Below, piece after piece: positions 44,294-47,473 of a stretch of DNA of 64,000 nt. Numbering within the stretch: the stretch's first letter is position 1; each line of letters opens with the position of its first letter. The position numbers and the translations under genes are program-made. Under the pieces are notes generated by a model. The model was not told where the DNA came from. It saw nothing but the letters and a program-made list of their open reading frames with translations, and did not search any database. Source of the DNA: an uncultured Alphaproteobacteria bacterium (GTDB lineage Bacteria > Pseudomonadota > Alphaproteobacteria > HIMB59 > GCA-002718135); the NCBI GenBank assembly GCA_902601455.1, contig CACKNC010000001.1, positions 282,240 through 346,239 of the forward strand, given 5' to 3'.

Positions 44294-45727
44294 TTAAACA
44301 TCATAATAAAGATTAAATTCATGAGGATGAGGTCTTAAATCCATTGGACTAACTTCATTCTCTTTTTTATAAGAAATATAAGTTTCAATATTATCTTTAG
44401 TAAATACATCCCCTGCTAACAAATATTTATGATCTTTTTCAAGCGCATCCAAAGCTTCGGCAAGAGATCCAGGGGTTGAAGGTATTTTTGCTAAAACACT
44501 TGCAGGTGCTTCATAAATATTGATGTCAGTAGGTTTCCCTGGATTTATTTTATTTTTAACACCATCTAAACCAGCCATTAATATAGCAGAGAATGCTAAG
44601 TATGGATTTGCAGAAGGATCAGGACATCTAAACTCAATTCTTTTAGCTTTAGGGCTAGCAGTGTAATTATTTGGTATTCTAACAGAAGCAGTTCTGTTTG
44701 CTGCTGAATACGCTATGTTTACTGGAGCTTCAAAGCCAGGCACTAATCTTTTATAAGAATTAGTTGTAGGTGCGCAAAATGCTAATAGTGATGGAGCATG
44801 TTTTAAAATGCCTCCAATATAATGAAGTGCAAAGTCACTTAAGTCAGCATAATTTCCTTTCTTATACATTAGTGTTTTATTTTTTTTCCAAATGCTAGAG
44901 TGTACATGCATCCCAGATCCATTATCCTCAAATAATGGTTTTGGCATAAAGGTGGCTGTAAGACCATGAAGTTTTGCTACATTCTTAACAACGTACTTGT
45001 AACGCAATAAATCATCAGCCATAGATAAAAGTGGAGAAAACTCTAAGTCAATCTCACATTGTCCACCTGTTGCGACTTCATGATGCGAAGCTTCAACATT
45101 AATACCAATATCTTCCATTGTTAAAACCATTTCTGTTCTAACATCTTGTAAGCTATCTGATGGAGGTAATGGGAAGTATCCCCCTTTATGTCTTGGTTTA
45201 TGGCCTAGGTTAGGATTTTCATCCCTACCTGTATTCCATGCCCCTTCAGTCGAGTCTACTTCATGAAAGGCAAAATTAGAACCTGAATCATATTTTACGT
45301 CATTAAAAATAAAAAACTCAGCCTCAGGGCCAAAATAAGCTGTATCACCCATACCAGAGGACTTAAGATATTTTTCTGCTTTCTTTGCAATGTATCGCGG
45401 ATCTCTAGAATAACTTTTATATGTTACAGGGTCTACTACGTCGCAATAAAATGCTATTGTCTTTTCTGTAAAAAAAGGATCAATATAAGCTGATGTTACA
45501 TCAGGCACCATTGCCATATCACTATTTTCTATTGATTGAAATCCCCTAACTGAGGATCCATCAAAACCAACACCATCTTTAAATAAATCTTCAGTTAAAT
45601 ACTTAATTGGAATAGAAATGTGATGTGTTGATCCAGGCATATCTGTAAAACGCAGATCAACCATTTTTATATCTTCATTTTTAATTTTTTTTATCAACTC
45701 TTTTGGAGTTTTGCAGTTATATTTCAT
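44294..45727 (-). CDS. glnA: Glutamine synthetase type I
   Basis: Makes glutamine from glutamate, ammonia and ATP; main ammonia-assimilating enzyme. The 477-residue GSI protein has [10 protein letters not shown], the DGSSVRGF loop, [16 protein letters not shown]-like [11 protein letters not shown], and the adenylylation-type Tyr in [12 protein letters not shown] 45727 is chosen because GAGGAA lies four bases upstream; a GTG at 45739 adds four residues. Two tandem glutamine riboswitches lie in its leader and PII (glnB) is just upstream, so expression should respond directly to glutamine. Confidence 0.95.
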
Positions 45728-45753
45728 AAAATTCCTCACACCTAAAGTTAACC

Positions 45754-45772: not shown

Positions 45773-45816
45773 AGCTTGATACTTAATTCATGCTCTAGTT
45801 ATGAAATCTGCTATTC

Positions 45817-45864
45817 GCGTTCCTTCAGCTGAAGCTTACTTCCGACCCAGATGGGTTGAACGAT
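45817..45864 (-). ncRNA. Glutamine riboswitch (glnA RNA motif), copy 2
   Basis: On the minus strand the element reads ATCGTTCA, then hairpin ACCC-ATCT-GGGT, then CGGAAGTAAGC, hairpin CTTC-AGCT-GAAG, and GGAACGC. CGTTC pairs with GAACG as the closing stem. The conserved CGTTCA, CGGAAGTA and GAAGGAACGC blocks and three-stem layout are those of the glnA RNA motif, which binds L-glutamine. It lies 90 bases before the glnA start, 15 bases downstream of an identical-type copy. Confidence 0.9.
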
Positions 45865-45879
45865 TTATAACTTTTGCAT

Positions 45880-45936
45880 GCGTTCCTTCAGTCAAATGAC
45901 TTACTTCCGATTTAAGAAAATCTTAAATTGAACGAT
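45880..45936 (-). ncRNA. Glutamine riboswitch (glnA RNA motif), copy 1
   Basis: The upstream copy reads ATCGTTCA, hairpin ATTTAAG-ATTTT-CTTAAAT, CGGAAGTAAG, hairpin GTCA-TT-TGAC, TGAAGGAACGC. All conserved blocks match copy 2, while the helices differ in sequence but keep pairing, which is covariation evidence for structure. A TATAAA at 45946-45951 on the minus strand could be the -10 of a promoter starting just before it. Confidence 0.9.

Positions 45937-45977: not shown

Positions 45978-47473
<1,496 letters not shown>

Follow-up and report, generated by a model that had tools for sequence, protein, structure and literature searches.

Tandem glutamine-I aptamers in an alphaproteobacterial glnA leader: a candidate OFF switch in a family in which GlnD and GlnE were not found

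Glutamine Riboswitches Described to Date

The glnA RNAs were reported in 2010 from environmental sequences, in which they occur in tandem and are associated with PII, glutamine synthetase (GS), GOGAT and Amt (PMC2864571); both the aptamer class and its tandem form have been known since then. In a review from 2018 the glutamine riboswitch was described as restricted to cyanobacteria, with the GS/PII/Amt associations limited to environmental samples (PMC6316151), and a glutamine riboswitch has also been described in marine Melnitz-like phages (PMC9004378). In glutamine-I the ligand is bound at G59:C1, and a long-range pair that corresponds to one in glutamine-II caps P1; judged by the equivalences listed in the same paper, this P1-capping pair of glutamine-I is 23:60 (PMC6698751). 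Here, a leader with two such aptamers is described from the window, the whole 64,000-nucleotide stretch of DNA of an uncultured alphaproteobacterium that was analysed, and is compared with these systems.

The Aptamer Pair and Its Genomic Setting

The initial annotation of the window recognised two copies of the glnA RNA on the glnA strand. Comparison with Rfam by cmscan (gathering cut-off 35 bits) returned two full-length minus-strand matches to RF01739 at the positions annotated, with scores of 58.7 and 63.6 bits, each covering positions 1-53 of the 53 in the model; the glnA start codon lies on the same strand (Table 1). The motifs CGTTCA, CGGAAGTAAG and GAAGGAACGC are all present as described, and the variable hairpins do differ in sequence between the copies while keeping their pairing. 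The spacing given as 15 bases has to be corrected to 17, since GAAGGAACGC ends at 45880 and the second CGTTCA starts at 45862. Both aptamers have the three-way junction with P1 CGUUC/GAACG, the conserved core is intact in the alignment, and P2 and P3 vary in sequence with the pairing kept, not only between the two copies but also across 72 pairs. The glutamine-II model, RF01704, has no match in the leader of the window.

Table 1. Features of the aptamer-bearing leader and of its flanking genes (positions in the window).
Feature	Position	Strand	Evidence
Glutamine-I aptamer 1 (RF01739)	45877..45936	-	cmscan 58.7 bits, E 2.2e-10
Aptamer 1 P1	45934-45930 with 45885-45881	-	
Glutamine-I aptamer 2 (RF01739)	45814..45864	-	cmscan 63.6 bits, E 1e-11
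Aptamer 2 P1	45862-45858 with 45822-45818	-	
Inter-aptamer linker CAUGC-AAA-AGUUAU-AAAU, candidate P0 5' strand	45863..45880	-	near-invariant in relatives
3' block AUUUCAUAACUAGAGCAUGA, candidate P0 3' strand (AUUU, AUAACU, GCAUG), alternatively anti-start strand	45788..45807	-	linker complementarity
UUAUGAAAU around the glnA start codon	45721..45729	-	9 bp complementarity to block 45807-45799
glnA, type I glutamine synthetase, regulated gene	44294..45727	-	TIGR00653, 653 bits vs cut-off 429
glnA start codon ATG	45727-45725	-	
Probable glnA Shine-Dalgarno sequence	45733..45738	-	sequence
PII nitrogen regulatory protein, directly upstream of the leader	45978..46319	-	P-II models

The pair sits in a 250-base gap between the PII gene and glnA, on the same strand as both, and every one of the 43 relatives with enough sequence has PII ahead of its glnA leader. 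The genome to which the window belongs (1.42 Mb in 39 contigs, 86% complete) contains a second aptamer pair, which precedes an ammonium transporter gene of the 'marine subtype' (TIGR03644); both pairs thus stand upstream of same-strand genes of nitrogen metabolism, glnA and amt. The covariance scores, this second pair and the conservation in relatives together exclude chance. The proposal of the initial annotation that tandem glutamine-I aptamers occur in an alphaproteobacterial glnA leader is supported; the literature describes the class as cyanobacterial or from marine metagenomes (PMC2864571, PMC6316151).

The comparison drew on draft genomes that are 53-96% complete, many of which come from single cells. 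RF01739 was found in 36 of 37 genomes of the genus, mostly as pairs and in up to eight copies, in none of 24 genomes of the sister family, and in only 6 of 385 genomes sampled from the class. Of 162 genomes of the order, 105 contained a pattern specific to the linker between the aptamers; these 105 all belong to the family of the window and are distributed over five of its six sampled genera; no match was obtained in the sister family, and the reversed pattern, used as a control, never matched. The exceptions within the family are one member (G513) lacking the tandem composite, PII and GlnD, and a few incomplete genomes.

The aptamers of 77 loci stand ahead of glnA (28 loci), amt paralogues, or a CP-ATP-grasp gene, the first gene of an operon that also includes Alpha-E and transglutaminase-like genes (L227:1182-4374; L204-L207). 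This operon carries the tandem composite in the genus, where a leader ORF of 17-20 codons lies ahead of it, and in an unrelated alphaproteobacterial family (f10) it is preceded by one glutamine-I aptamer; the presence of glutamine-I aptamers in two unrelated lineages points to a role of the operon in nitrogen metabolism. In one amt paralogue of the genus the glutamine-I aptamer stands alone, with neither the P0 linker nor the 3' block (L005, L059, L070, L081), which makes this leader a natural single-aptamer control. It is also worth mentioning that at L039, L055, L064, L068 and L074 two consecutive amt genes each have a tandem riboswitch of their own, the two riboswitches lying about 2 kb apart; in L055 the aptamers of both amt leaders are identical, which suggests duplication or conversion.

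Helix P0 and the Anti-Start Strand

The linker is near-invariant over the 72 tandem pairs of the genus and across gene classes. Its consensus, GCATGC-A(AA)-AGTTAT(T)AAAT, occupies 17-19 bases between GGAAC and CGTTCA. A further conserved block follows aptamer 2, reading in the alignment ATTTCATAACTAGAGCATGA in glnA leaders and AATTTCCATAGCTAAGCATGA in most others. Linker and block are colinearly complementary over 11-15 bp, forming a predicted helix, here called P0, which encloses aptamer 2 and is composed of CAUGC/GCAUG and AGUUAU/AUAACU or AUAGCU, to which the window adds AAAU/AUUU. Over 59 distinct linker/block combinations the pairing of the 11 core positions is 98% complete, and it falls to 11-34% when one strand is shifted by 1-3 bases. 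In every gene class the duplex is predicted at about -11 kcal/mol, against about -4 kcal/mol when the linker is shuffled. The changes observed in P0 are one-sided (A-U to G-U, U-A to U-G) and double compensatory changes are absent, so that the evidence for the helix consists of complementarity and conservation and not of compensatory covariation. The family model of RF01739 does not contain P0, a predicted extra helix of the window's family. The z-score of the whole-leader fold, -1.98, is weak on its own. Folded without constraints, the window leader has a minimum-energy structure in which P0 is present but aptamer 1 is misfolded. A variable hairpin lies between the block and the Shine-Dalgarno (SD) sequence, which directly follows it. 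Competition of the linker with a downstream hairpin was considered and rejected, the similarity being confined to amt leaders and not conserved.

The block has a second potential partner. In the window, AUUUCAUAA (45807-45799) is complementary to the sequence around the glnA start codon (45729-45721), with a duplex energy of -14.5 kcal/mol, and the pairing can be extended by CUGC (45716-45713) with GCAG (45811-45808); this anti-start helix appears in the predicted fold when the linker is held unpaired. In glnA leaders the anti-start strand is common to P0 and makes 8-9 perfect pairs over the AUG, and the energy of glnA blocks is -11.0 with glnA starts and -5.7 to -7.1 with amt starts. In amt leaders UUAAUUUCCAU can pair with the SD AUGGAG..UUAA, a moderate signal (about p 0.12 versus shuffles), and duplex energies gave no anti-start signal in the leaders of the CP-ATP-grasp gene; the predicted anti-start pairing comes mainly from the glnA leaders. 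Constrained folds of 122 leaders, with the aptamers held folded, were compared with P0 on and off. With P0 on there were zero block-start pairs and the SD-AUG accessibility was 0.37-0.60; with P0 off there were 8-13.5 such pairs and the accessibility was 0.23-0.44. P0 increased the predicted SD/AUG access in 84-100% of the leaders in each named gene class and in 75% of four unclassified leaders.

The first base of P0, C45880, is position 60 of aptamer 1, that is, the base following P1. According to the energy model, P0-on and P0-off are nearly isoenergetic in glnA leaders; loss of the base-60 pair costs P0 about 3 kcal/mol and flips the glnA balance from -1.1 to +1.9. The amt leaders are not flipped by this loss alone, their balance moving from -6.6..-4.9 to -3.5..-1.8. 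Ren et al. reportedly observed in 2015 that a short helix below P1 melts on ligand binding.

Tandem leaders of phages and of SAR86 offer a comparison. In 53 of 57 distinct leaders of this kind the SD is enclosed by a stem of at least 4 pairs whose start falls exactly on base 60; stems of at least 5 pairs were found at base 60 in 51 leaders, compared with 7-27 at the other offsets tried, and they covary (CACCU/GGGUG, CAUCU/AGAUG, CAAUC/GAUUG, CACUC/GAGUG). These stems lend independent support to the base-60 helix as the gated element.

Altogether 110 viral contigs of IMG/VR (L229-L338) match the tandem glutamine-I pattern, and nearly all flanks checked carry an SD-enclosing stem that starts from aptamer base 60. 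Two matches to the pattern of the P0-type linker in viruses were discarded as chance, since they concern phage genes without aptamers. In SAR86-type gammaproteobacteria tandem or triple glutamine-I aptamers precede several genes, among them one for a GlnII-like glutamine synthetase, and their leaders mostly have a different linker (GCGCCGTTA...AACGTAAAT; L111, L115, L148, L157, L175, L178, L188, L197).

Absence of GlnD and GlnE

Neither GlnD nor GlnE was found in any of the 41 genomes of the genus or the 11 further genomes of the family that were searched (0/52 for each protein). In the riboswitch-free sister family GlnD was present in 10 of 10 genomes and GlnE in 9 of 10; in a one-contig genome of that family (1,410,127 bases; L228:1537-5656) the PII gene is followed after 44 bases by glnA and then by GlnE on the other strand, without a riboswitch. 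Nearly all genomes of the window's family that were searched retain one PII gene; the GlnD and GlnE of the canonical GlnD-PII-GlnE cascade are missing beside it. A search for NtrC yielded only homologues below the cut-off, among them one full-length response regulator at about 182 bits versus 559, a result that carries no information on NtrC itself. The initial annotation had regarded the glutamine feedback as separate from the PII cascade, which is supported in a modified form: PII is present directly upstream of the leader, but the components of the cascade that read glutamine and modify GS, GlnD and GlnE, were found in no genome of the family searched, so that the riboswitch more likely replaces the cascade than runs parallel to it.

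Judged by eye, PII has kept a tyrosine close to where uridylylation normally takes place, despite the missing GlnD, and GlnA has likewise kept one near the adenylylation position despite the missing GlnE.

Proposed Mechanism and Alternatives

We propose, at a probability of about 0.55, that the composite is a tandem glutamine-I OFF switch acting on the translation of glnA and amt through a strand shared by two helices, and that it replaces the lost GlnD/GlnE arm. At low glutamine the linker would pair with the block as P0, the block would be kept off the start codon and glnA would be translated. When glutamine is bound, base 60 of aptamer 1 would be recruited into the capping pair, and since P0 begins at base 60, it would be deprived of its end pair and weakened or opened. 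The released block could then pair with the start codon or the SD, shutting translation off. The aptamers, the linker, the complementarities of P0 and of the glnA start, and the distribution of GlnD and GlnE are observed; we infer that these copies bind glutamine, and likewise the direction of control, the part played by aptamer 2 and cooperativity. The targets favour the OFF reading, feedback repression of glnA and amt making sense; against it stands the fact that the characterised glutamine riboswitches are ON switches (PMC6316151, PMC6698751). On a wider scale, we tentatively suggest that a protein glutamine sensor may have been replaced by RNA in this one family of streamlined marine alphaproteobacteria, in the form of an inverted, two-ligand, P0-coupled OFF switch that would coordinate glnA, amt and the CP-ATP-grasp operon after the loss of GlnD and GlnE.

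The same helices could in principle be read as an ON switch, in which bound aptamers stack on P0 and stabilise it, the block is held off the start and translation rises. P0 abuts P1 of both aptamers and fits most of the bound fold, its formation increases the predicted access to the start, and the glutamine riboswitches known so far are of the ON type (PMC6316151). We consider this reading unlikely, as P0 occupies base 60, which the bound aptamer needs, more glnA and amt at high glutamine would make little physiological sense, and the base-60 stem of the phage and SAR86 leaders encloses the SD, as expected for a stem opened by the ligand.

Somewhat more doubtful is an arrangement of independent, additive aptamers in which P0 serves for docking or as a rigid scaffold, with gating left to other, unconserved pairings near each SD. 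A spacer role is hard to square with a near-invariant linker and block, and in glnA leaders the strand of P0 is also the one that covers the AUG with perfect pairs; nonetheless, the missing anti-start signal in CP-ATP-grasp leaders and its moderate strength in amt leaders, the variable hairpin that separates the block from the SD, and the amt paralogue with one aptamer and no P0 would all fit such an arrangement.

Transcriptional attenuation, with the block and the following hairpin as a ligand-controlled terminator, is improbable: a hairpin does follow the block, with UUUU behind it in some glnA leaders, but the window leader has no terminator-like site, and most leaders have no U run and carry the SD directly behind the hairpin. 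That the composite is a sequence relic without function can hardly be entertained: nothing was found in favour of this view, and throughout the family, in several gene classes, core, linker and block are conserved and the hairpins compensated.

Comparison with Known Systems

In the largely open-access literature searched, no description was found of this host, of the P0 platform, of the predicted inversion or of the coupling to GlnD/GlnE loss, and the main text of the genomic paper on the HIMB59/AEGEAN-169 clade, to which the order of the window probably corresponds, mentions neither a riboswitch nor glutamine. The host lineage, the P0 platform and the sensor replacement thus appear to be new. 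Leaders of the sort known from unassigned environmental sequences can now be placed in a type of host and viewed in the context of whole genomes, and the presence of a riboswitch is tied, within one order, to the absence of the protein glutamine sensor.

The tandem glycine riboswitch is likewise built of two same-class aptamers with a conserved linker; the aptamer is a different one, and we know of no comparable shared switching strand in it. More digital control has been suggested for that riboswitch, as cited in PMC2864571. Glutamine-II (Downstream-peptide, RF01704) has a near-identical ligand pocket (PMC6698751) but a pseudoknot fold. The glutamine-I riboswitch of gifB (IF17) in Synechocystis represents the same aptamer class and also controls glutamine synthetase output (PMC6316151), but it is an ON switch targeting an inhibitor of GS, whereas the leaders of the window's family would act directly on glnA and amt. 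With the environmental members of RF01739 the locus shares the whole-model match, the conserved core, the GS/PII/Amt context and the tandem arrangement (PMC2864571); it differs in its alphaproteobacterial host, in the fixed linker, P0 and the start-pairing block, and in being predicted as OFF instead of ON. The phage and SAR86 leaders are also tandem glutamine-I aptamers of marine heterotroph systems with a stem at base 60, but that stem directly encloses the SD, and the linkers are of 8-12 nt or of other kinds, without the P0 linker. A stem opened by the ligand would expose the SD there and switch the gene ON; in the window's family, opening of P0 would free the anti-start strand and switch the gene OFF. 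We propose, as a testable idea, that by means of the base-60 helix the same aptamer can be wired ON, as in phages and SAR86, or OFF, as in the window's family.
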